A DNA stretch of 34,175 nucleotides from Pseudomonadota bacterium. GTDB taxonomy: Bacteria; Pseudomonadota; Alphaproteobacteria; GCA-2731375. Positions 1 to 15,158 of the stretch are shown in pieces; position 1 is the stretch's first letter; each line of letters opens with the position of its first letter. A program made the position numbers and the translations under genes. The notes beneath the pieces were generated by a model, which was not told where the DNA came from, did not search any database, and saw nothing but the letters and a program-made list of their open reading frames with translations. The stretch lies in assembly GCA_027623205.1 (NCBI GenBank), contig JAQBYC010000046.1:1-34175 (forward strand), written 5' to 3'.

Positions 1-102
1 ACATCGGGCAAGCCGCGCAACGCCGCACAATGGCTTGGTAACGCCATCAAATGGGTCAGATTAGCCGCGACACGCTCTCATAAACGGGGCAGCAAAGATT
101 AG
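1..102 (+). CDS. Possible 3' end of a truncated plus-strand gene
   Basis: The first forward frame is open from base 1 to a TAG at 100-102 and would encode about 33 C-terminal residues rich in Arg, Lys and Trp. I do not recognise a family, and an open frame this short can occur by chance in GC-rich DNA. It would converge on the dioxygenase operon, leaving about 56 bases between the stops. The remaining bases up to 158 hold no gene that I can see. Confidence 0.15.
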   Translation, partial: TSGKPRNAAQWLGNAIKWVRLAATRSHKRGSKD

Positions 103-158
103 GATGTGGCACCGCAATAGGTTATTCACGCCCCTGCCCCGTCGGAAACGCTCTAATT

Positions 159-653
159 TCAGATCTGATGAATATCGACCGCGCCGTCGATCACATCCTC
201 CAGCAAGACGATTTTCTTGCGTGCAATGCGCAGGCCCCTTGGCTCGCGGCGCAACTCGTACTCGTACCAGCCGCCGCGAATTTGCTTGCCCATGCGGGCA
301 TCGACGGAAAGCGCCAGCCATTTCGCCGAGGCGGACACAACCGCCGCGCCGCTGTCCAACAGGCGCACCGTATCGACCAGATGCGAGGTCCGCGACAAGG
401 GCAGTTCGGCATAGGCCTGACCGGAAGAGATGCGGTGGAGGCGGGCCGCCAGGCCTGGTTTGCCGGTGATATAGATCATGTTGACCTGCATCTCGGGATC
501 GTCACCCAGTTCGTCCTCCGACAGCCAGGCGGGCACCCAATAAACGCAGTCCTCGGCATACAGCGCCAGCCATTCATCCCAACGCCGACGGTCCAGCAGG
601 TCGGCCTCCAGATACAGCAGATCCCGGACCTCTTGGTACAGCTCAGTCTCCAT
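159..653 (-). CDS. Aromatic-ring-hydroxylating dioxygenase, beta (small) subunit
   Basis: This 164-residue protein has the length and pattern of the SnoaL/NTF2-fold small subunit of Rieske non-haem iron oxygenases. An N-terminal acidic helix (LYLEADLLDRRRWDEWLALY, about residues 13-32) is followed by the hallmark tyrosine/tryptophan-rich stretch YAEDCVYWVPAW (about 32-43). The subunit is structural in the alpha3beta3 hexamer and binds no metal itself. Its start codon lies inside the last codons of the alpha-subunit gene (11-base overlap), with no good ribosome binding site of its own visible, which suggests translational coupling. It is the last gene of a minus-strand operon with NIPSNAP, DUF2478 and alpha-subunit genes. 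Family assignment is firm; substrate is unknown. Confidence 0.9.
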   Translation of the reverse strand: METELYQEVRDLLYLEADLLDRRRWDEWLALYAEDCVYWVPAWLSEDELGDDPEMQVNMIYITGKPGLAARLHRISSGQAYAELPLSRTSHLVDTVRLLDSGAAVVSASAKWLALSVDARMGKQIRGGWYEYELRREPRGLRIARKKIVLLEDVIDGAVDIHQI

Positions 654-1962
654 GGGGGACTTTTTCAGCTTCCATCAAAGCGGCCCATTGGCGGAAATAG
701 CCATGATACAGCGTTTCATGGTCCCACCGCGCGGCGCTGCTGACCACCTCCGCCTCGAGCGCCCTGGCAAGAGCATCCGGGCCCCGGGTGAGCATTTCCA
801 GGCCGCGTTCCATATGGTTCCAACGCGCCTGACGGCCCTGGGCGCCGATCTGGCAGTCTTCCAGAGCGGCCAGATCATCCGGCGTGGCCATGCCCGTGAC
901 CATGAAGAAATCCTCGAACTTGCGCAGGCGGGCAATGCGCGCGGTCCGGCTTTCCCCCTTGGGGGCGATGCAATAGACCCGCACCTCGGTCCGGTCCGGG
1001 GCCAGGGGACGGAACACCCTGATCTGGGTCGACGACTGGTCCATCAGTTGCACGTTGGGAAACAGAAACAGGTTGCGGCCACGGCGCAGCATCCAATCCA
1101 CCTTGTCCTTTGCGAAGCGCCGCAACAACGGCCCTTCGGCCTCGAACAAGGGCGCCACGGCCGGGTTGGCCCGCCCGGCCCAGATCATGTTGTGGCCATG
1201 GCCCAGGTCATAGCAGCCACTGGCCACGGTTCCCTTGATACGGCCCGCTTCCGTGGGCCGCTTGCCGGCATCGTCGCCCAAGGCTTCGCGCCGGGCCATG
1301 GCCTGTCCAAAGATCCGATGCACCGTGCCGACGTGATAGCCATCGACGCCGTTTTCCGCCTGCATCTTCCAATTGCCGCGGATCAGGTAGGTCTGTTGGC
1401 CGGGAACCACTTCCAGACCATGGGGCGATTGGTCCGCAAGCAAATCGATGAAGGGCCGGGCCGCGCCCAAATGGTCCGCCAACCCGCCCACGCCAGGGTC
1501 GAGGCAGCCAAAGATAAAGCCGCGGTAATCGGCAACGCGGGTCACCGGCGTCAGGCCATGGTTTTCCCGTCCGATGCCATTTGGCCAGCCCTCCGCCTCG
1601 TCCTTGACCTTGATGCAGTCACCTTCCGTGTTGTAGCACCAGCCATGGAAGCGGCAGACCAAGGTCCGGGCCCGGCCCCGGCGGCGCGGCGTCAGAACGG
1701 CGCCACGATGGGAACAGGCATTGATGAAGGCGCCAATGCCGTCGTCGCGCTGGCGGATGACGAAGACCGGCTGGGCGCCGATATAGGTGGCGTAATAGTC
1801 GCCGTGGCCGGCGACCTGGCTTTCGTGACACAGATAAACCCAGGTGCGCTCAAAGATCTGGCGCAATTCACGGGCAAAAATATCCGGGTCGGAATAAATC
1901 CGCCGGTCAACGCGAAAGCCGGCCGGATCGGCGCTTTCCAAGACCATCTCCCGTGACAACAT
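643..1962 (-). CDS. Aromatic-ring-hydroxylating dioxygenase, alpha subunit (Rieske [2Fe-2S], benzoate/anthranilate-like)
   Basis: This is the 439-residue catalytic large subunit. The N-terminal Rieske domain shows the cluster ligands Cys83-x-His85 and Cys103-x2-His106 (CSHR...CRFHGWCY). The C-terminal domain has the mononuclear iron motif ENGVDGYHVGTVH, with Asp207 as bridging residue and His210 and His215 as ligands; the third ligand is probably one of the Asp residues at 362-363. The wording around the iron site (GNWKMQAENGVDGYH) resembles BenA/AntA-type subunits that act on aromatic carboxylates; that substrate class is an inference. The enzyme needs a reductase (and sometimes a ferredoxin), and none is encoded nearby. 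It sits 15 bases downstream of DUF2478 and overlaps the beta-subunit start. Confidence 0.93.
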   Translation of the reverse strand: MLSREMVLESADPAGFRVDRRIYSDPDIFARELRQIFERTWVYLCHESQVAGHGDYYATYIGAQPVFVIRQRDDGIGAFINACSHRGAVLTPRRRGRARTLVCRFHGWCYNTEGDCIKVKDEAEGWPNGIGRENHGLTPVTRVADYRGFIFGCLDPGVGGLADHLGAARPFIDLLADQSPHGLEVVPGQQTYLIRGNWKMQAENGVDGYHVGTVHRIFGQAMARREALGDDAGKRPTEAGRIKGTVASGCYDLGHGHNMIWAGRANPAVAPLFEAEGPLLRRFAKDKVDWMLRRGRNLFLFPNVQLMDQSSTQIRVFRPLAPDRTEVRVYCIAPKGESRTARIARLRKFEDFFMVTGMATPDDLAALEDCQIGAQGRQARWNHMERGLEMLTRGPDALARALEAEVVSSAARWDHETLYHGYFRQWAALMEAEKVPHGD

Positions 1963-1977
1963 CTGGTTCCGCCTGTT

Positions 1978-2556
1978 CTACCCTGCCGGTTTGTCCCGGG
2001 CCGGTTTGTCCGGGGCCAGTTTTTTCTGGGTTGATTTGTCCTGACGCGCCGTGGCCCACCACTGGCGGAACGCATCCAGGTCATAGGCCAGGGTATCGCC
2101 TAGCGCACCGGTACGTTCCTGCCACAGATCCAGGGCGAATGCGGGCACTGCGATCAACAGGGGAATTTCCTCGGCGATGGCCATGAAGATTTCATCATTC
2201 AGGCCCTGGCCTTTCTGTTCCTGCTCGCCGAACTTCTCCAGCACGATCAAATCGACGTTCTCACGTATGGCCCGGCGCAGGGCCTCGATCGATTCCGTCA
2301 GGGCGGAGGTATCCAATGAACAGGTCTTGTTTTCCAGGTTTTCCCTGGTCGGCCGGTTAATGGCGATCCGCTGCCCCGTATCCAGGGCCACCATATCGAT
2401 GCCGGTCATCTTGCCATCGGCATCCCGCAAAATTTCCTGTACCAGCCCGCCGACCCGGACGCCCGCCCCGCGCAGTTCGGCCGCGAAGTCGGACAGCGCA
2501 TCGCGGTCCTGCAAATCGCGCGCATACACGGCGGCGGCAAAGGTCGTCTCACTCAT
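1978..2556 (-). CDS. DUF2478 family protein
   Basis: The 192-residue product matches the pattern of the DUF2478 family. An N-terminal part (VYARDLQDRDALSDFAAELR, GVRVGGLVQE) is followed by the typical core VLEKFGEQEQKGQGL...IPLLIAVP. It ends with a hydrophilic Lys/Pro tail carrying repeated DKPA units (about 173-192). Some family members are annotated beside molybdenum uptake genes and resemble NTPase folds, but I see no Walker A motif here, so no NTPase activity is claimed. It lies between the NIPSNAP gene (77 bases upstream) and the dioxygenase alpha gene (15 bases downstream), so it is probably cotranscribed with them. Its role in ring hydroxylation is unknown. Confidence 0.8.
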   Translation of the reverse strand: MSETTFAAAVYARDLQDRDALSDFAAELRGAGVRVGGLVQEILRDADGKMTGIDMVALDTGQRIAINRPTRENLENKTCSLDTSALTESIEALRRAIRENVDLIVLEKFGEQEQKGQGLNDEIFMAIAEEIPLLIAVPAFALDLWQERTGALGDTLAYDLDAFRQWWATARQDKSTQKKLAPDKPARDKPAG

Positions 2557-2633
2557 GCCCGGTTCATCCGATCCATCCCATGTCGCTGGCTACAAATCCA
2601 TGCCACGGCGACGGGGCCTGCAATATGGAGCGC

Positions 2634-2960
2634 TCAGCGCATCGTGGATTTCGTGGTCGGAACGATCCGCGTCACCACGTTGTTCGGCCGGTCGAGGTAG
2701 TCCGGCACCCTTGGAGACATCTCGTTTTTCCAGTAATCCGACTCGTAGACCGCCTTGTACAGCGCTTCCCGCTGCGCCTCGCTTTCGAAGCGGCGCAGCC
2801 AGACATAGACGCTGTCGTCGTCCTCGCCCCGGAAGCTGCCGCAGATCACCATGCCCTTCGAGACCTGGAAGGGAATGATCTCTTCTTCCATGATCTTAAT
2901 CCATTCGTCCATCTTACCGGGAAGCACTTTATACTGGCGATGTTCATAGAAGGCGGTCAT
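2634..2960 (-). CDS. NIPSNAP family protein
   Basis: This 108-residue protein is a ferredoxin-like alpha/beta-barrel (NIPSNAP) domain. The markers are the opening YEHRQYKVLPGKMDEW, the middle GSFRGEDDDSVYVWLRRFES, and the basic helix and loop YESDYWKNEM. Such proteins are small, cytoplasmic, dimeric and poorly characterised; in bacteria they often sit beside aromatic or ketone catabolic enzymes. It is the first gene of the dioxygenase operon, about 550 bases from the divergent MlaC-like gene, so the operon promoter should lie just upstream. A direct catalytic role cannot be read from the sequence. Confidence 0.85.
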   Translation of the reverse strand: MTAFYEHRQYKVLPGKMDEWIKIMEEEIIPFQVSKGMVICGSFRGEDDDSVYVWLRRFESEAQREALYKAVYESDYWKNEMSPRVPDYLDRPNNVVTRIVPTTKSTMR

Positions 2961-3514
2961 GGGGATACCTCTGCTTGAGTTGACACGTAGCTGCCGAAAT
3001 TTTCAGGTCTAGTGTACGGGATATGGCAATAGCCGTGAAGCATCTATCGACATCATACCGCAACCGGGCAAGCGCCGCCGGCACAAAGGCTTGATCGGAA
3101 ACCTTAAGCGCGCCGTATGACGTCGGCGCCCGTGGGACGGGCCGAGTGCGCTGGCGCCGAACAATCCGCGGACAGCGCTCCTCCCCGGAGGAGGCAACGG
3201 ACTAAGTATATTCCGATCCTGGGCAAACGGCCCTGGCGTGCATACATAGTCAGACAAGAAGAATTGCCTGCTTTGTCTACAACCTACAAAGCAATGCCGC
3301 CTTCGCGGCAAATCGCCTTTTGCGGGGTTATGACGGTGTCCTGCCGACATGGGGGCACAGCAGACGTTGGGGTTATTAACCCACCCGGCGGGATAGCGAT
3401 CGTCCTCGCCATCGTCCTCGTACTGCTGCTGCCCGGGCGCATATAGGCCGCCTTGCTCCTCATCCGAAGGCCTGGGCCGCGACCTGTCTCAACCCAAAAC
3501 GGGAGTTATTGACC
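2961..3514. promoter_or_regulatory. Long divergent intergenic region with several short inverted repeats
   Basis: This 550-base spacer separates the divergent NIPSNAP operon and MlaC-like gene and must hold both promoters. Reading frames in it encode Arg/Pro-rich low-complexity peptides with no family resemblance, so I do not call a gene. Visible symmetry includes CTCCTCC-CC-GGAGGAG at 3178-3193 and GGGTTA-T-TAACCC at 3370-3382. ATCGTCCTCG occurs twice just after 3385. No -35/-10 pair stands out. The palindromes are candidate operators only. Confidence 0.4.
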
Positions 3515-4153
3515 ATGCTGAAGCGACATACTTTCCCTGGCCTCGCAATCCTGCTGCTCGCCGCCTTTTCCATACCCGCCGCCGTGGCCGATTCCGTCGG
3601 CACGCCGGGCACCTTTATCACGAACCTGGCGCAAACGGCGCTCGCCTCCGCCAACGACAGGACACTGTCCGCAACCGAACGCCAGCGCGGGCTCGACGCC
3701 TTGCTCGATACCGGATTCGACCTGCCGCAGATTGCCGCCCATGTCGTGGGGCCCTACTGGCTAGGCGCGGGCGCGGCTGAACGGCAGGCCTTCACAATGG
3801 TCTTTCGCGACTATGTCGGCCGCACCTATTCGCAGCGCTTTGCCGATTATGACAGTGCCTCGTTCCGGGTCGTCAGCCAGCATGCGGCGGCCGCTGCCAG
3901 CACCGTGGTGACCACCGAAATCGACAAGCCCCTCGAAGCCAAAAAAGCAGGCCAGACATCCCCGAACCAACCGCAACGGTTCGACTGGCTCGTCGTATCC
4001 AAGGGCGGGTACCGCGTCGTCGATGTCACCGCCGGCGGGGTCAGCATGGCGGCGACCATGCGCGCGGAATTCACGTCATACCTGCGGCACCACGGCGGCG
4101 ACCTGACAAGCCTGACACAGCGTCTACAGGCCACGGCGATCGCACTGAAATAG
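3515..4153 (+). CDS. MlaC/Ttg2D-like periplasmic phospholipid-binding protein
   Basis: The product is about 212 residues. It begins with a signal peptide (basic MLKRH, hydrophobic LAILLLAAF, probable cleavage after AVA near residue 25). The remainder matches the MlaC/toluene-tolerance family: FITNLAQTALASANDRTLS, a block of the type FDLPQIAAHVVGPYW, then RDYVGRTYSQRF and the C-terminal VVDVTAGGVSMAATMRAEF. MlaC shuttles phospholipids between the outer-membrane MlaA and inner-membrane MlaFEDB complexes. The ATG at 3515 is preferred over an in-frame TTG two codons upstream because GGGAG at 3501-3505 is correctly spaced only from the ATG. No other mla gene is nearby, so the partner transporter is elsewhere. 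Confidence 0.82.
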   Translation: MLKRHTFPGLAILLLAAFSIPAAVADSVGTPGTFITNLAQTALASANDRTLSATERQRGLDALLDTGFDLPQIAAHVVGPYWLGAGAAERQAFTMVFRDYVGRTYSQRFADYDSASFRVVSQHAAAAASTVVTTEIDKPLEAKKAGQTSPNQPQRFDWLVVSKGGYRVVDVTAGGVSMAATMRAEFTSYLRHHGGDLTSLTQRLQATAIALK

Positions 4154-8349: not shown

Positions 8350-9498
8350 CTAGACTTTAGGCATCACGTCCTTGGCGAACCATGCCAACTGCTCCAGCAT
8401 CACCGCCAGGGGCGTACCCATGCTGGACTGTACATTGACGTCTTCCAGGCCCGGATATTTCTCGCCCAGTTCCTGCAGAAATTCCACGAAACCCGCGGGC
8501 GGGCCGCAATACCAGGCGCCGCGCTCGCAGGAATATTCCAATGTCGCCAGGCGGCTGTCGGCGAAACCACCGCGCCGGCCCAGGGTGGCAAGCTGTTCAT
8601 CGTCCATGGGGCCCATGAAACCAAGGGGCGCGAACATCTTGGCATGCTCCTCGAAATACGGCGTGGCTTCGCGGATCGCCTGCTCCCGGGTTGGCGCCAG
8701 ATGATAGGAAATGCCGAAGCACAAATTTTCACCCAGCTTGGTCTGGTTTCCCGCCCTTTGGTGAGCCTCTTGAAAAGCCAGCACGGAACTTTCCGCCATC
8801 AGGGCGGAGCCGCCGCCGATCACTCCTTTGATGCCATGCTTGACCATGAAATCCAGGCCGCGCTCGGTGGCGCTGACCACCGGCTGCCAGCATTCCACGG
8901 GCAGACTCCGGGGCCGAGGCACCAGGGTCAGCTCCTTCAGGTCATAACCGCGGTAAGGCACTTCCGCCGGCAGGGTGTAATATTTGCCCTTGTGGGAGAA
9001 GGCCTCGTTGTTGAAGGCCTTGAAAATAATATCGACCTGTTCTTCAAAGATGTCACGGTTCGCATCCTTGTCGATCATCGGGCCGCCCAGGGATTCAACT
9101 TCGCGCGTGTGATAGCCCCGGCCGACGCCAAAGGTTACCCGCCCCTTGGTCATGTGATCCGCCATGGCGAAATCCTCGGCCAGACGCAGGGGATGCCACA
9201 TGGGCGCGATATTGAAGCCGCAGCCGATGCGCAGGTTCTTGGTCAAATGCGCCAGATGCACGCCCATCAACAGCAGATTGGGGATGCATTCATAGCCCTC
9301 GCGCTGAAAATGATGTTCGGCCAGCCATAGGGTGTTATAGCCAAGGCCATCCATGCAGTGGGCCATCGCCTCGGTCTTGTCGAAGATCGTGGCCAATTGC
9401 TTGTCGGAATAGCGCCGCTCGTTGGCCGGCGTTGCGTCCTGCCCCATGTCTCCCAGATCGATGTGACCGGCGAACAGGCTTGAAAATCTTTTTATCAT
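8350..9498 (-). CDS. LLM-class flavin-dependent oxidoreductase (bacterial luciferase-like)
   Basis: This protein of about 382 residues is a luciferase-like TIM-barrel monooxygenase. It shows the substrate/flavin segment LGYNTLWLAEHHF, PNLLLMGVHLA, IGCGFNIAPMWHPLRLAEDFAMADH and GRVTFGVGRGYHTREV, in the order expected of LLM alkanal-type enzymes. It uses reduced FMN supplied by a separate reductase. The start at ATG 9498 is chosen because AAGGAG lies eight bases before it; an in-frame GTG three codons upstream overlaps that site. It follows two NodB-type genes after about 75 bases and may share their transcript. Substrate is not evident. Confidence 0.87.
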   Translation of the reverse strand: MIKRFSSLFAGHIDLGDMGQDATPANERRYSDKQLATIFDKTEAMAHCMDGLGYNTLWLAEHHFQREGYECIPNLLLMGVHLAHLTKNLRIGCGFNIAPMWHPLRLAEDFAMADHMTKGRVTFGVGRGYHTREVESLGGPMIDKDANRDIFEEQVDIIFKAFNNEAFSHKGKYYTLPAEVPYRGYDLKELTLVPRPRSLPVECWQPVVSATERGLDFMVKHGIKGVIGGGSALMAESSVLAFQEAHQRAGNQTKLGENLCFGISYHLAPTREQAIREATPYFEEHAKMFAPLGFMGPMDDEQLATLGRRGGFADSRLATLEYSCERGAWYCGPPAGFVEFLQELGEKYPGLEDVNVQSSMGTPLAVMLEQLAWFAKDVMPKV

Positions 9499-9573
9499 GC
9501 GTGGCACTCCTTCCCCGCCCTCATTGTAGGCGCCTTCGTATCATTCTACCAAACGGCGCCTTACATCGCCAAT

Positions 9574-10512
9574 TCAACTCAAGCTGCCGGGGTAATCCCG
9601 CCAGATGCTGTCTTCCAGGCGCAAATGGCTGCTGGCCGGATAGCTTTGCAGCCAGTAATTGGCGCATTGGCCACCGGTCGGGTTCCAGACGCCTGGATAG
9701 GTGCGCAGATAACCCAGGAAATCTTCCAGCAGTTTCAGCCGGTTGCACCAGCCGATGGCATGCGGATGCAGGGTCATATTGAAATAGCGGCCGCGTTTAT
9801 ATTGCGCGTCGAACTCCGCCTTCCAGTTCGCAAACAGCGTATCGGCGTGCTCCAGACCGGTGCCCTTGTCGGGGAACAACAGGAAAAACTGATCATCGAA
9901 ATGATAAAAGTAGGGCAGCGTCAGGATGGCCCGGCGCTGTTCGAAATCGGTCACCCAATAGTGCGGGATATCGTCCGACAAGCCATTGCCCATGTATCGG
10001 TAGCCGGCTTCAATCAACAAATCCATGGTGTTGGGACTGATGGTACCGACGGCGAAGGGATCGCCCTGGCGGGGCAACGAATACCAGCCTTGCGGCGCGT
10101 GACCGATAACCTCGGTCAGGATCTCGGTCGTCAGGTCCATCCGGGCCTTTTCCTCGACCCGATCAAGGGTACTGACATCCTCGTGCTTGAAGCCATGGGC
10201 GGCAATCTCGTGACCTTCGCTGGCAAGCTCCCGAAGGGCGCCACCCAGCAGGCGCGCCATCGCCGCCGGCACCGTGAAAGTGGCCTTGATGTTAAAGCGG
10301 GCCAAGGTGGCCAGCAATTGGTCCAGTCCCTCGTGCAGGCCAAAGACCGCGCGGGAATCCCGCAGGTCGGCGGCGCGGAGACCTTCCGGCCGCCGGGCCA
10401 GGCTCAGATCCACATTGACGGCAAGGCAACAGCGGTGACCGTCGGGCCAATGCACCTCGTCATCACGCAGGCCAATCTCGTCGGTGGCGGTGTAACCTTG
10501 CTTCCAGGGCAT
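9574..10512 (-). CDS. NodB/PuuE-like polysaccharide deacetylase family protein
   Basis: The 312-residue protein has a NodB (CE4) homology fold: strand AVNVDLSLARR with Asp35, FNIKATFTVPAAMARLL, and the metal motif GHEIAAHGFKHED with His106 and His110 (and Asp112). The C-terminal LHPHAIGWCNRLKLLEDFL is typical of PuuE-like members. There is no signal peptide, so it is expected in the cytoplasm, where relatives hydrolyse small cyclic amides or ureides (allantoinase PuuE, cyclic imidases) rather than polymers. Its ATG abuts the TAA of the upstream paralogue, with GGGAGGG as ribosome binding site. It is paralogous in fold to its neighbour but clearly diverged. Confidence 0.83.
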   Translation of the reverse strand: MPWKQGYTATDEIGLRDDEVHWPDGHRCCLAVNVDLSLARRPEGLRAADLRDSRAVFGLHEGLDQLLATLARFNIKATFTVPAAMARLLGGALRELASEGHEIAAHGFKHEDVSTLDRVEEKARMDLTTEILTEVIGHAPQGWYSLPRQGDPFAVGTISPNTMDLLIEAGYRYMGNGLSDDIPHYWVTDFEQRRAILTLPYFYHFDDQFFLLFPDKGTGLEHADTLFANWKAEFDAQYKRGRYFNMTLHPHAIGWCNRLKLLEDFLGYLRTYPGVWNPTGGQCANYWLQSYPASSHLRLEDSIWRDYPGSLS

Positions 10513-11412
10513 TTATTTCCCTCCCATCGGCAGCCGTGGCGGATGGTTCGCCAGACAATGGCGGGCCATTTCCGCACAGCTTGGGAACCAGACGCCGGGC
10601 AGCGACTTCATGCGGGTAATCAGGCGGTCCAGCATTTCGATCCGTAGCGCCCGCCCGGAAACAAAGGGGTGCAGGCAGACGTTGAGATAGCCGCCCTGGC
10701 GGTATTGTTGCAGGAAGGCGTCCCACCACATCTCCATCACCCGTTCCGGTTCGGTGATCCGCTGGGCCGCGTTCGCCGAGGCCAGCCAGGCGAAACTGAA
10801 AAACATGGCATCGTCGATGGCGAAATGAAACGGCAAATTCAACAGGCAATTTTCACCATCGTTATCGCGCACGTAATAGGGAAGATGATGGGCGGCGCCA
10901 TGGGAATTGTAGATATAGCCCTCTTCGAGCAGCAGCGACTGGCTGTGCCAGCTGCGGGTACCGACCGGCCGTTTGCCGGCGGTTGCTTCCAAGGCCAGGG
11001 TGGATTTGTGCAAATGGTCCGCTTCCAGTTGCAGATCCCTGGGGACTTGATGCTCCCACATATGATCGGCAACCTCGTGACCGCTTTGGGCGACGGCGGC
11101 GACCGCCCTGGGGTACAGCTCGCAGATCCGCCCGGGCGTGAACACGGTTGTCTTGACGCCATGGCGATTGAACAGCTCGATCAAACGCCAGATACCAACC
11201 CGGCCGCCAAACTCCCCCTGGGCAAGCTGCATGGGCGGCTCGTTCAAGACCCGGCGCAACAGCATGGCATCGAAATCGCAGGTGAAATTCACCGCCATCT
11301 GGACCCCCGGAGGATAAGCAATCTCCTCGATGAATTCATGCCGCGCCGCGGCGGCCCTGGCGGCGGCTTCCAGCACTTCGATCTCGCCTGATAACTGGTC
11401 GGTCGTGGACAT
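10513..11412 (-). CDS. NodB-type polysaccharide deacetylase family protein
   Basis: The 299-residue protein begins with an Ala/Glu-rich helix and then shows NodB motifs. VNFTCDFDAM carries Asp46 and Asp48, and SGHEVADHMWEHQV carries His117 and His121 as probable metal ligands; TRSWHSQSL and YLNVCLHPFVSGRALR follow later. No signal sequence or membrane segment is visible, so a cytoplasmic small-molecule substrate is more likely than peptidoglycan or chitin. It is the first gene of a minus-strand pair with a second NodB protein and is divergent from the VOC gene, with a 113-base promoter region between. The two proteins may act as a pair, but this is inference from their gap-free arrangement. 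Confidence 0.83.
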   Translation of the reverse strand: MSTTDQLSGEIEVLEAAARAAAARHEFIEEIAYPPGVQMAVNFTCDFDAMLLRRVLNEPPMQLAQGEFGGRVGIWRLIELFNRHGVKTTVFTPGRICELYPRAVAAVAQSGHEVADHMWEHQVPRDLQLEADHLHKSTLALEATAGKRPVGTRSWHSQSLLLEEGYIYNSHGAAHHLPYYVRDNDGENCLLNLPFHFAIDDAMFFSFAWLASANAAQRITEPERVMEMWWDAFLQQYRQGGYLNVCLHPFVSGRALRIEMLDRLITRMKSLPGVWFPSCAEMARHCLANHPPRLPMGGK

Positions 11413-11525
11413 GGTCGCGCCTTTCCCATGAATGTCGTGTTGGCCCGTGCCTCATCTTACCCATCTTCCGTCCGCCGCCAAGCCGATATAGTCTGCATGA
11501 TGTCATTCAATGAAAGGCCGATATC
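11413..11525. promoter_or_regulatory. Divergent promoter region, NodB pair / VOC protein
   Basis: This 113-base spacer lies between two divergent start codons. The motif GCCGATAT occurs twice, just after 11480 and again immediately before the VOC start codon (about 11518-11525), possibly a repeated operator half-site. No clear sigma70 pair was found. The VOC gene lacks an obvious strong ribosome binding site beyond AAAGG about ten bases upstream. Confidence 0.3.
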
Positions 11526-11996
11526 ATGGCTCAAGCCAACCCGTTCGAGGCGAAACGCCGGGCCTTGCAAGATCAATTCATGGATGCCCAGGCGCCGGTT
11601 GACCGTGCGGTCGGCACCGACGGCGTGCATCATCTGGTGCTGATCTCATCCGACCTGGAGGCAACCATCCGTTTCTACACCCGGGTTTTGAATATGCGCC
11701 TGGTGAAGGTGGTGGAAAATCGCGACGACCCGACCTCGACCCACATCTTCCTGGACATGGGCGGCGGCAATATGCTGGCGTTCTTCGATTTCCCCGAACA
11801 TGGCGATGCGCCGGCCGTGCGTGGCACCGGCGCCATGCACCATGTGGCATTGAAAGCCTCGCCGGGCCAGTACAAGGCCTTGTTCGCCAGGCTCAAGGAA
11901 CAGGGCATTGCGCATTCCCGGCATGGCACGGCAGAGGCCGGTTCCGTCTACCTGCGCGATCCCGACAACGCCTTGATCGAAGTAACCTGCCGTTAG
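11526..11996 (+). CDS. VOC (glyoxalase/bleomycin-resistance/extradiol) family protein
   Basis: The 156-residue product contains paired beta-alpha-beta-beta-beta modules. The first includes DGVHHLVLISSDLEATIRFYTRVLNM; the second includes GAMHHVALKASPGQYKALFARLKEQGI and ends in YLRDPDNALIEV. Probable metal ligands are His35/His36, His105/His106 and Glu152. The FYTRVLNMRLV and DPDNALIEV phrases are diagnostic of the superfamily. Reaction cannot be set from sequence; glyoxalase, epimerase, dioxygenase and binding roles all exist. It is transcribed alone and converges on the PhyH-like gene, with only 10 bases between the stops. Confidence 0.85.
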   Translation: MAQANPFEAKRRALQDQFMDAQAPVDRAVGTDGVHHLVLISSDLEATIRFYTRVLNMRLVKVVENRDDPTSTHIFLDMGGGNMLAFFDFPEHGDAPAVRGTGAMHHVALKASPGQYKALFARLKEQGIAHSRHGTAEAGSVYLRDPDNALIEVTCR

Positions 11997-12006
11997 AGCG
12001 TGTTGG

Positions 12007-12780
12007 TTATTTTAACAGGCAGTCGTTGGGCAGGACCGATAGGGGCGTAAAATCCCTATGGGCGATGTATTCCGGGCGTTTGAACCGGCGGATGGCATTG
12101 TCGGTGCGGTTGTAGGTGACATAGACAATCAGCCGGTTCCACGGTGACATGTTGGGGGGCGAGCCGTGCACCAGCGTACCGTGGAAGAAAAACCCTGATC
12201 CGGGCGGACCTTTCGGCGCGACAATGCCGCCCTGTTCCACCAGGCCCGCCACCGTTTCCTGATCCAGGGTCCAGAGCGGATACGAAGTGGTCTCCATATC
12301 GTGGCCCGCGTCCAGCACGCCGGCCTTGTGGCTTTTCGGCACGATATAGAGGGGGCCATTGAACTCGTTCACCTCGTCCAGAAATACAGCCAAATTCATG
12401 GCGCGCGCCTCGGGCATATCGTCGTCCCGCTGCCAGACGCCATAGTCCTGATGCCATTGCCAGACATCGCCATCGAAGGCCGCCTTGCCGTTCAACTTGA
12501 ACTGATGAATATAGACATCGCCACCCAGCAATTGTTGCGCCGGTTCCAGAATACGGGGATGCGAGATGAAGCGGCGGTAAACGTCATTGTAGGTATGCGC
12601 GGCAAAGGCCGTGCGCACCACATCGCCGGTTTTCTCGCGAATGATCTCCGGCCGCCGTTGGGCGAATATCTCTGGGATTTCGCCTTTCAGAACCGCGACT
12701 TCCTCGAGCGTAAACAGATCCGGCACGAAGATAAAACCATCCTCGTCGAACCGTTTTCGTTGCGCCTCATCAAGTTTCAT
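12007..12780 (-). CDS. Phytanoyl-CoA dioxygenase (PhyH) family Fe(II)/2-oxoglutarate oxygenase, EctD-like
   Basis: The 257-residue protein shows the double-stranded beta-helix oxygenase signature. WQWHQDYGVWQRDD carries His110 and Asp112, HGTLVHGSPPN carries His205 as third iron ligand, and Arg216 is placed to bind 2-oxoglutarate. The wording from RAMNLAVFLDEVNEFNGPLYIVPKSHK is close to ectoine hydroxylase EctD, but the protein is about 40 residues shorter than typical EctD and no ectoine genes are near, so a different small substrate is likely. It follows the GMC oxidoreductase after 25 bases on the same strand and is probably cotranscribed with it. Confidence 0.87.
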   Translation of the reverse strand: MKLDEAQRKRFDEDGFIFVPDLFTLEEVAVLKGEIPEIFAQRRPEIIREKTGDVVRTAFAAHTYNDVYRRFISHPRILEPAQQLLGGDVYIHQFKLNGKAAFDGDVWQWHQDYGVWQRDDDMPEARAMNLAVFLDEVNEFNGPLYIVPKSHKAGVLDAGHDMETTSYPLWTLDQETVAGLVEQGGIVAPKGPPGSGFFFHGTLVHGSPPNMSPWNRLIVYVTYNRTDNAIRRFKRPEYIAHRDFTPLSVLPNDCLLK

Positions 12781-12805
12781 GACCCGGCCTCCCTATCAGG
12801 TCGCA

Positions 12806-14512
12806 TTACGCCCCAGCCAAAATGGCGTCGGCGATCTTCTCCGCCGTCATCAGAGTGGGAAAATTCGTATTGGCGCAGGGCACGATGGGAAAGACCGAGG
12901 CGTCGACCACCCGCAGCCCCTCCACGCCCCGAACCCGGCCGGCATTGTTGGTCACCGCCTTGGGGTCATCATCGGCGCCCATGCGGCAGGAACATGACGC
13001 ATGCCAGACACCAACGGCTGCCTTTTTGACGAAGGCCTCCAACGCCTCGTCATCTTCCATGATCTGCTGCAGGGAATATTCTTCGAGGATCAGTTTTTCC
13101 ATCAGGAAACTGCGCAGGAAATCCGGGCCGTCCAGTAATTTCGCCATCAGGCCGGTCATGAACTTATTCTTGGCATTGACCTCGCCAACCTGACGGACCT
13201 TTTCGGAATAGCTGGCGGGGAACGGATCCGAGGTCGCCGCCTGCAGGGCCGGCATGGCGTGCATGGCGGCCATCTTGCGGACGCCGTTCATCAGGCGGTC
13301 CAGATCACGCCGATCGGAAAGCAGATTGAATTCCACCGTCGGCTCGTCCTGCCAGTCACGGGAGTTCAGCTTCACCTGGCCGGTTTCGGAATAGGTCTTA
13401 TTGACGAATATGATCATCGAGGCGATCTGCTCGCCCACCGCATGCCAGGACGATTTGGAAGAAACGGCGACGAACATATCGCCTTTTGGGATGCCCTCCA
13501 GGTGCGAGGAATAACGCAAGCCGACCAACAGATGACGGCGGGTGAAATCGTTGATGCGGGCATGGGGTTTGATGAACGAGGCCACCGCGACCGAGGGATG
13601 ATCCATCAACCCCTGGCCGACACCGGGTACATCGGCGCGCACATCGATACCCAGTTCACGCAACGCCATGGGAGGGCCGATGCCGGCCCGCATCAAATGG
13701 GCCGGTGAATGGATTGCGCCCGAAGATAGAATGATTTCATTGCCGCGGAATTCCTGCTCCCGCCCCTCCACCATGGCCTTGACGCCGACGCAGCGGGTGC
13801 CTTCGAACAGCAGTTCCTTGACCTGGGTGCGGGTCGATATGGTCAGGTTTTCCCGCAACCGGGTGCCGGGATCGAGATAGCCAATGGCGGCGGAGACCCG
13901 GCGCTCGTAAGCATTCGACATCGTGACGGGGAAATAGCCGTCCTTGAATTCGCCATTCTGATCGGGCAGAAATTCGTAGCCGGCCTGGCGAAAGGCCTCG
14001 CCGGTCGCGGCGGCGTGCCCGTTCCACTGATCGGGCATGATGCGGCGCACGGGAATGCGGCCCGCCTGGCCATGATAGGGATCATCAAAATCCATGTCCC
14101 GCTCGACCTTTTTGAAGTAGGGCAGAACGGCATCCCAGTTCCAACCCGTCGCGCCCCGCTGTTGCCATTCATTGAAATCCGTCGGCGCGCCGCGGTTGGC
14201 CATTTGACCGTTGATGGAGGAGCCGCCGCCAAGCACCCTGGCCTGCTCGTATTTGCGCAAACGCGGCCGATCGGCATCGGGATTGTTGTGCGAGATCACT
14301 TCGGTCGTGACCTGCAACTCGTTCCAAAGGAACCGTTTGTCCAGATAAGCGGTGCCGGGGTAGCTATCCAGAATCTCCTCGGGCACATTGCCGTGGGGCG
14401 TATCCTGACCGGCTTCGCACAGCAGCACCTTATTGGCGCCGCGCGCCGACAGCCGATTGGCCATGACCGAACCGGCGGAACCACCGCCGACAATGATGTA
14501 TTCGTATTGCAT
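12806..14512 (-). CDS. GMC-family FAD-dependent oxidoreductase (choline dehydrogenase-like)
   Basis: The 568-residue enzyme begins with a Rossmann FAD motif (YIIVGGGSAGSVMANRL, about 5-21) and has the GMC segments ARVLGGGSSINGQMANRG and SSGAIHSPAHLMRAGIGP. The catalytic His504 lies in VWHASCSCRMG, and Asn548 in CANTNFPT stands 44 residues later, as in choline oxidase. It oxidises an alcohol to an aldehyde or acid. The start at 14512 follows GGGAG with six-base spacing; an in-frame extension to 14620 is not supported. It precedes the EctD-like gene by 25 bases and follows a PH-like membrane protein gene after 55 bases. The alcohol substrate is unknown. Confidence 0.9.
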   Translation of the reverse strand: MQYEYIIVGGGSAGSVMANRLSARGANKVLLCEAGQDTPHGNVPEEILDSYPGTAYLDKRFLWNELQVTTEVISHNNPDADRPRLRKYEQARVLGGGSSINGQMANRGAPTDFNEWQQRGATGWNWDAVLPYFKKVERDMDFDDPYHGQAGRIPVRRIMPDQWNGHAAATGEAFRQAGYEFLPDQNGEFKDGYFPVTMSNAYERRVSAAIGYLDPGTRLRENLTISTRTQVKELLFEGTRCVGVKAMVEGREQEFRGNEIILSSGAIHSPAHLMRAGIGPPMALRELGIDVRADVPGVGQGLMDHPSVAVASFIKPHARINDFTRRHLLVGLRYSSHLEGIPKGDMFVAVSSKSSWHAVGEQIASMIIFVNKTYSETGQVKLNSRDWQDEPTVEFNLLSDRRDLDRLMNGVRKMAAMHAMPALQAATSDPFPASYSEKVRQVGEVNAKNKFMTGLMAKLLDGPDFLRSFLMEKLILEEYSLQQIMEDDEALEAFVKKAAVGVWHASCSCRMGADDDPKAVTNNAGRVRGVEGLRVVDASVFPIVPCANTNFPTLMTAEKIADAILAGA

Positions 14513-14567
14513 GCCATCTCCCTTTTGTTTTTGTTTTTTGCCGCCTGGGGCGGTTAGCCAACGCCGC

Positions 14568-15158
14568 TCACTCGTCTTCCGCGACATAGTAAAGCACGAA
14601 TTCCTGGGCCAGGCGTTCAATTTCGCGCGTCGACCGCGATAGATGGGAGATCGGGATATGCACCGACGGATAACCTTTGGCCGCTTTTTGAAACTTCGAC
14701 ATTTGCGGCGAGATCAGGGGTAGAAAGCCAATCGAATTGCGGACGAAGGTGCGCGCCTTTTCATCCAATCGCCCCGGGTCCACCGCCACCATGAGCACAC
14801 GCCGCATCAGGGTCGCGTTGGCGGCCCCCATGCCGATCACGGCCGACCACGGGATCAGGCCGATGGGGGGACGCCGGCAATGGACGCCCACTTCGTCAAA
14901 CACCACCACCGGCTTGCGGTCAAAGGCCATTTGCAGCAACAGACCGGCAACGAACAACGGGATCAAAATGGCCAGTAGGTTGGTCCAGCGCATTTCCGCC
15001 AGGACAAATTCCGCGGCCTCGTCCGATTGCAGGGCCATGGCCACGCCCAACAGACAGGGCAGGATCAAGATGCCAAGCTTGAGTTTTGACGGATAGAGCT
15101 TTTCCGGTGCGGGCGGCGGCGGCGTCTTTTCGGCGGCCTGTTGCTTGCCGGCCAACAC
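14568..15158 (-). CDS. Membrane protein with bacterial PH-like domain, hypothetical
   Basis: The 196-residue product has a Pro-rich cytoplasmic start, two membrane segments (about 28-43 and 61-79) and a C-terminal soluble part with the pattern VVVFDEVGVHCRRPPIGLIPWSAVIGMGAA. That phrase is typical of bacterial PH-like (STM3941-type) modules, but I cannot assign a function. The start is GTG at 15158 (or TTG at 15155); no strong ribosome binding site is visible. An in-frame 11-codon reading frame (ATG at 15194) ends in TGA directly before the GTG. It may head the operon containing the GMC oxidase and PhyH-like genes. Confidence 0.65.
   Translation of the reverse strand: MLAGKQQAAEKTPPPPAPEKLYPSKLKLGILILPCLLGVAMALQSDEAAEFVLAEMRWTNLLAILIPLFVAGLLLQMAFDRKPVVVFDEVGVHCRRPPIGLIPWSAVIGMGAANATLMRRVLMVAVDPGRLDEKARTFVRNSIGFLPLISPQMSKFQKAAKGYPSVHIPISHLSRSTREIERLAQEFVLYYVAEDE

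Follow-up and report, generated by a model that had tools for sequence, protein, structure and literature searches.

The 34,175-base stretch analysed here (contig JAQBYC010000046.1; in the following, the window) is one entire contig of the source genome (G000), an assembly of 5.0 Mb in 228 contigs that is 97% complete. At its start, four minus-strand genes follow each other closely, i.e., in reading direction, genes for a NIPSNAP-family protein of 108 amino acids (aa; 2634..2960), a DUF2478 protein of 192 aa (1978..2556), the 439 aa alpha subunit of a Rieske oxygenase of the benzoate-dioxygenase type (643..1962) and its 164 aa beta subunit (159..653). We recover the open reading frames (ORFs) exactly at these positions with spacings of 77, 15 and -11 bases, such that the start of beta overlaps the end of alpha. 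This agrees with a preliminary description of the locus, which had reported four minus-strand genes with short gaps or overlaps. All four proteins score above the respective Pfam gathering cut-offs: NIPSNAP (PF07978) with 31.9 bits vs. 22.3, DUF2478 (PF10649) with 129 bits vs. 22.3 over profile positions 2-159 of 159, alpha with both Rieske (PF00355, 69.1 bits vs. 20.3) and Ring_hydroxyl_A (PF00848, 60.8 vs. 24.9), and beta with Ring_hydroxyl_B (PF00866, 109.7 vs. 27), i.e., the separate beta subunit of a ring-hydroxylating oxygenase (RHO) is present. Beyond beta, the contig ends after another 158 bases (1..158); comparing them with the corresponding loci in nine relatives gave no significant match.

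Our main result is that DUF2478, alpha and beta are conserved as a closely spaced unit in the genus, a linkage that is real and, as far as searched, genus-bound. The comparison set comprises 11 genus genomes (G000-G010), while G012, G013 and G014 belong to the same family outside the genus. Some records occurred under two locus labels (L026-L033 and L047 duplicate the genus loci L012-L020) and were counted once. DUF2478 is present in 10/11 genus genomes (missing in G004) and an alpha ortholog in 9/11 (missing in G001 and G004). Each of the nine alpha-bearing genomes carries a DUF2478 sequence directly upstream of alpha at a spacing of 3-36 bases (about 5 bases in G009), a count that includes G007, where DUF2478 is truncated, and G008, where alpha is split by a contig end. 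Gene order and short spacing of DUF2478-alpha-beta are thus conserved in all nine of these genomes. The three genes are probably read on one message. Within positions 1-3500 we found no sigma-70-like site (1.3 expected) and six terminator-like sites (2.7 expected), none of which is a minus-strand site in the gap between DUF2478 and alpha; these counts are uninformative as to the transcript. The genes after beta vary, i.e., we see a zinc-dependent alcohol dehydrogenase (Zn-ADH; G002, G003), a major facilitator superfamily (MFS) transporter (G010), a ParB-like gene and an enoyl-CoA hydratase (G005), or acetamidase and LigAB genes on the other strand (G006). In the latter genome, which is the closest relative, the convergent acetamidase/formamidase and LigA/LigB-type extradiol dioxygenase genes lie directly past beta (L017:11722-13860).

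NIPSNAP, on the other hand, is an independent neighbour and no part of this unit. Its orthologs are found in all 11 genus genomes (one as a partial match), including G001 and G004 that lack alpha, and they lie beside DUF2478 in three genomes only (G000, G006, G002; in one of these at a distance of 768 bases) and elsewhere in the other eight. We thus rejected NIPSNAP as an operon member, given that the order is conserved in just 3/11 genomes and that the gene is also present without alpha, such that the four-gene NIPSNAP operon of the preliminary description does not hold.

Beyond the genus, the two partners were not found side by side. Among 14 non-genus alpha loci (G013 and 13 others), read with flanks of 5.5-6.4 kb per side except for 1.2 kb (L109) and 2.4 kb (L119) on one side, none shows a DUF2478 match at E 1e-3. 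Likewise, none of 45 non-genus DUF2478 loci (L047 was left out since it belongs to the genus) contains a match to the window's alpha or beta at E 1e-3. In a sample of 385 genomes of the class, 17 have a relative of alpha (E 1e-90 or better) and 32 have DUF2478. Both are present together in five, i.e., in four genomes of the genus and in G057, where alpha (contig C41) and DUF2478 (contigs C48 and C115) lie on different contigs. Of the neighbourhood whose conservation the preliminary description had made decisive, the DUF2478-alpha-beta part thus stands within the genus (9/9), while neither NIPSNAP (3/11) nor any linkage outside the genus (0/14 and 0/45) does. A literature search on RHO, DUF, benzoate and operon returned, among the matches listed, no title or start of an abstract that names a pairing of DUF2478 and RHO.

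Both partners are also found apart at close evolutionary range. In G001, DUF2478 is intact and alpha-beta is gone; about 23 bases separate DUF2478 from a ParB-like gene, which is the gene that follows beta in the sister genome G005. Conversely, alpha and beta are intact in G007, whose DUF2478 lacks its N-terminal half and begins instead with the start of an adjacent luciferase-like gene. This chimera (L047:759-1133 on contig C376, directly upstream of intact alpha-beta) may be due to a deletion or a misassembly. Outside the genus, G013 has an alpha of 65% identity without DUF2478, and G012 a DUF2478 of 72% identity without an alpha ortholog. These four genomes speak against the idea that the RHO needs DUF2478 as a helper for its metal or cofactor. 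Furthermore, the comparison of DUF2478 between G001 and G005 yields a nonsynonymous rate (dN) of 0.038 and a synonymous rate (dS) of 0.64, i.e., a dN/dS ratio (omega) of about 0.06, and a three-taxon split assigns an omega of about 0.08 to the G001 branch and of 0.04 to the sisters. DUF2478 hence seems to be kept by purifying selection in G001 without the RHO, provided that the loss is not very recent.

Concerning the oxygenase itself, alpha carries the C-x-H ... C-x2-H ligands of a Rieske cluster (C83, H85, C103, H106; 1645..1716, minus strand), which we read residue by residue and which are invariant in 8/8 genus sequences. Equally invariant (8/8), and aligned with naphthalene dioxygenase, are the mononuclear iron site around D207, H210 and H215 (1318..1344, minus strand) and D362 or D363 (874-879, minus strand) as third iron ligand. 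We take H210, H215 and D362/D363 to be the 2-His-1-Asp iron ligands. The best curated models are BenA for alpha (TIGR03229) and BenB for beta (TIGR03232), in line with the benzoate/anthranilate-like oxygenase of the preliminary description. Since the scores stay below the cut-offs (450.9 bits vs. 780.95 for BenA, 102.6 vs. 225.55 for BenB), we classify the pair, from its sequence, as a benzoate-type oxygenase that is no benzoate dioxygenase by curated standard. It shares with BenAB, the oxygenase of benzoate 1,2-dioxygenase, the two-subunit Rieske architecture, but both subunits score far below the BenAB cut-offs and an adjacent BenC-like gene is lacking in 7/7 relatives. Alpha is about 43-45% identical to plasmid proteins annotated as benA (among 30 listed of 113 records), and the source genome encodes four further Rieske alpha matches of 31-33% identity.

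More similar are the alphas of four RHO clusters of family f104 (L112-L115; 51-53% identity to the window's alpha), three of which also contain the Zn-ADH type seen after beta in G002 and G003. In contrast to the genus loci, all four have their own BenC-like reductase inside the cluster and none has DUF2478. As a side observation, L112 combines alpha-beta with the BenC-like reductase, Zn-ADH, an amidohydrolase, an EutA/arylmalonate-decarboxylase-like protein and an aminotransferase, and L113 looks similar by eye except for the missing Zn-ADH; this arrangement is perhaps an undescribed catabolic cluster.

The question is thus where the electrons come from. The source genome has no close BenC; its matches lie on contigs C53 (29% identity), C74 and C60, with the C60 protein being of NqrF-like length. 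On C53, the matching protein is a ferredoxin/FAD/NAD reductase that reaches 220 bits with the BenC model (cut-off 430) and adjoins a MarR gene (named by eye) and a gentisate 1,2-dioxygenase gene (561 bits, cut-off 442). Neither a BenC-like nor a C53-type reductase match (E 1e-3) is found anywhere in the window, and the same search gives none downstream of beta in the seven genus relatives with 4.3-8.0 kb of sequence there. The earlier statement that no reductase follows is therefore borne out by 7/7 relatives, while the window itself, with its 158 bases past beta, shows too little to carry it. In the relatives examined, the expectation that electrons have to come from a distant partner holds as well.

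The gentisate-linked reductase cluster is present in G000, G002, G003, G004, G006, G007, G008 and G009. In the sisters G005 and G010, the reductase is reduced to its ferredoxin part (L168:4100-4456 and L167:3205-3507, respectively). G001, which lost alpha-beta, retains a ferredoxin remnant of 41 residues with one conserved cysteine replaced (L234:1357-1479, contig C22), located between MarR and an intact gentisate dioxygenase. We also related this reductase to the presence of alpha in the class sample. Seven genomes of the sample combine a close alpha (E 1e-140 or better) with a cluster that lacks a BenC-like gene, and six of these have a C53-type reductase of at least 280 bits. Such a reductase is found in none of the four genomes with a BenC-like gene in the cluster, and in 36 of the remaining 374; both thresholds were set after seeing the lists. 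The seventh genome is G005 with its ferredoxin part only. Despite counter-examples (see below), these data are suggestive of the gentisate-linked C53 reductase as the best electron-donor candidate.

For DUF2478, an AlphaFold model based on 23 sequences (mean predicted local distance difference test score, pLDDT, of 81.8) points to a known fold. A second structural aligner places it closest to Aquifex THEP1 (1ye8; Z 14.5, 153 residues, root-mean-square deviation 3.0) and human NTPase 2i3b (Z 13.7; next row 8.0), i.e., the likeness to THEP1 extends across nearly the whole chain. Foldseek alone returned only KdpD below E 1e-3, without THEP1 among the first 50 rows, such that the match stems from the listing of the second aligner and fold families outside that listing are possible. 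A sequence search of solved structures gave one chance-level match (E 0.2), while the NTPase_1 profile (PF03266) scores above its cut-off with 38.7 bits, aligned from profile position 19 onwards. In contrast to THEP1, a Walker A motif (GxxxxGK[ST]) is found in none of 48 DUF2478 sequences (L178 was excluded as no DUF2478 ORF was obtained) and in none of ten plasmid members. The stretch that would correspond to Walker B of the NTPases appears to be EKFGEQE (residues 107-113; 2218..2238, minus strand), which is invariant in 23/23 aligned sequences. Taken together, DUF2478 is predicted to adopt the THEP1 fold but to lack a functional loop for nucleotide binding.

The motif also subdivides the family. 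Among 25 class-level members outside the genus, 14 read N[KR]FG[KR], five EKFGE and five something else, with one unmatched. On plasmids, we read 10 of 33 records and found molybdenum-related genes (nitrate reductase, MoeA/Glp, MoaA, ModA or NifQ) within 5 kb for nine of them. All nine read [NS][KR]FG at the motif and none EKFGE. Around 20 class-level loci, the 129 neighbouring ORFs include similar genes (nitrate reductase gamma 5, MoCF_biosynth 4, MoeA_N 2), in a tally that shows 25 of 93 families, picked antisense frames in several loci and undercounts DUF2478 (10 members for 20 loci) as well as other genes. EKFGE-subgroup loci outside the genus show, where read, no consistent neighbour. In Rhodospirillales metagenome-assembled genomes (MAGs), DUF2478 is fused to DUF4213 and DUF364 (L042:3745-4968, L043:7974-9212), which, as a structure paper (PMC2954201) suggests, may act in heavy-metal chelation with a pterin- or flavin-related role. 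ORFs of 379-450 aa were also seen at some of the class-level loci, and Azospirillum lipoferum has a DUF2478 gene of about 408 aa. DUF2478 is little studied in the open literature searched, where the name occurs in one paper, apparently as a table row, and the accession PF10649 in none.

Given the molybdenum gene context and the DUF364 fusion, a cofactor role is plausible for the DUF2478 family as such. This does not transfer automatically to the EKFGE subgroup of the window, since the molybdenum-linked DUF2478 (near NarGHJI, MoeA/Glp, MoaA, ModA or NifQ) belong to the same family PF10649 but to the [NS][KR]FG subgroup (9/9), are 27-35% identical over part of the chain and have no similar RHO nearby. 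The metal or cofactor idea of the preliminary description thus gains some contextual support for the family, but from other loci and mostly from another sequence subgroup.

Our joint reading, to which we give about even odds, combines these results as follows. With its Rieske cluster and iron site, alpha would hydroxylate a small aromatic or cyclic carboxylate, and electrons would reach alpha-beta from a component encoded elsewhere, for which the BenC-like reductase on C53 is the best candidate. DUF2478 would have a role of its own that is independent of the RHO and be at most an optional accessory to alpha-beta, with NIPSNAP as independent neighbour.

Several observations weigh against this reading. 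The genus relatives are alphaproteobacterial genomes, nearly all of them metagenome-assembled, such that truncations and absences may be assembly faults. The tight 9/9 linkage may in itself be a sign that DUF2478 is of importance to the RHO. Evolutionary distances (8 taxa) are of no help for such a tie: DUF2478-alpha and alpha-beta both correlate with r 0.72 (NIPSNAP only weakly, r 0.17 to 0.41), but the unlinked pairs alpha-gentisate dioxygenase and DUF2478-MarR reach r 0.78 each, such that the DUF2478-alpha correlation shows shared descent only and we rejected co-evolution as proof. Concerning the donor, the 6/7 enrichment yields a Fisher p-value of 8e-6 for thresholds chosen post hoc and a count that rests on two clades. 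Three genomes that lack this alpha have the C53-type reductase, namely G004 and G012 (next to the gentisate dioxygenase) and G014. G013 has alpha and no C53-type reductase (best 31%); it carries a 41% BenC-like reductase on another contig. Of the six more distant alphas in the class sample (41-45% identity), three (G242, G325, G334) come without a reductase in the sequence read around them, and their genomes have no C53-type reductase at E 1e-50. Finally, none of 27 other loci of C53-type reductases shows an RHO alpha (two types tried); one of them holds a gentisate dioxygenase, and part of the neighbouring genes resemble, by eye, those of diiron-oxygenase pathways.

Part of these points feeds an alternative that we consider to have almost an even chance, namely that the donor is another reductase, e.g., the ferredoxin-reductase on C74 or a shared ferredoxin combined with a house reductase. 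Besides C53, the source genome indeed has matches of this class on C74 and, with NqrF-like length, on C60, and the gentisate-linked reductase and alpha occur independently of each other in G004, G012, G014 and G013. What argues for the gentisate-linked reductase is that its ferredoxin decayed in just the genome that lacks alpha-beta and keeps an intact DUF2478 (G001), as well as that, for close alphas in the class sample, its occurrence is complementary to that of in-cluster BenC-like genes. A different answer would be a complete benzoate-type system whose reductase or dehydrogenase is hidden by the contig end. The missing piece may itself hold Zn-ADH or BenC, the contig does stop 158 bases after beta, and the Zn-ADH after beta in G002 and G003 as well as the dehydrogenase and/or BenC-like reductase genes of the f104 clusters show what could follow. 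We nevertheless regard this as very doubtful: the rest of a 97% complete genome contains no BenC ortholog (best 29%), and none of the seven relatives read has a downstream reductase. Zn-ADH as missing downstream gene of the source genome was rejected too, with no ortholog found and a best-scoring match of 30% identity.

The role of DUF2478 can likewise be read differently. It may be a pure bystander, i.e., an older gene that lends its promoter to alpha-beta without any functional tie, which we deem a serious possibility at somewhat less than even chances. This would fit that both partners occur apart, that the EKFGE loci read outside the genus share no consistent neighbour, and that DUF2478 shows signs of purifying selection in G001 without the RHO (omega of about 0.08 vs. 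0.04 in the sisters), but against it stands that the adjacency survives in every alpha-bearing genus genome examined while other neighbours change. The same adjacency at 3-36 bases amid differing flanks is what one would expect if DUF2478 were a helper dedicated to this oxygenase, for its assembly or its cofactor (e.g., for insertion or protection of iron or the Fe-S cluster), a reading for which one can further cite the molybdenum genes near 9/10 plasmid loci read (of 33 records) and the fusion to the putative heavy-metal chelation domains DUF4213/DUF364 (L042, L043). Against this, alpha does without DUF2478 in G013 and 13 other non-genus loci and with half of it in G007, DUF2478 is intact without alpha-beta in G001, G012 and others, and the nine molybdenum-linked plasmid members belong to the [NS][KR]FG and not to the EKFGE subgroup. 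We therefore judge a dedicated helper improbable and a helper role essential to the RHO unlikely. In a more speculative extension of the joint reading, the DUF2478 family would be a hydrolysis-dead THEP1 that loads or guards metal cofactors, i.e., molybdenum cofactor in the [NS][KR]FG branch and iron or its carrier in the EKFGE branch, and that became, in this genus, a private maturation partner, useful though non-essential, of a Rieske oxygenase borrowing gentisate-pathway electrons; we put forward this extended picture as a long shot.

The remainder of the window adds the following context. An MlaC-family gene on the plus strand (3509-4153) adjoins the NIPSNAP gene; among the four genes scanned beyond it, up to 7691, there are no mla genes. 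Positions 8350-14620 hold a cluster of a luciferase-like oxidoreductase, two tandem polysaccharide-deacetylase/PuuE-like genes, a VOC protein, an ectoine-hydroxylase-like protein and a GMC oxidoreductase, which is partly conserved together with the RHO region across the genus. The relatives of the genus are presumably marine, as isolate names such as 'Arabian' indicate.

In summary, the locus encodes an orphan benzoate-type oxygenase in a new arrangement that is local to the genus; it does not constitute a general new oxygenase system. No requirement for maturation proteins of their own is known for Rieske oxygenases, such that a conserved accessory gene would be worth testing. For this, the genus offers natural experiments: alpha-beta lost with DUF2478 kept, DUF2478 truncated with alpha-beta kept, and a ferredoxin that decayed where the oxygenase is gone. 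The predicted fold means that DUF2478 would be no ordinary NTPase, and for one of the family's branches the gene context suggests a relation to metal or pterin cofactors. If the link to the gentisate-linked donor is true, the orphan oxygenase would illustrate how unlinked loci share their electron partners.

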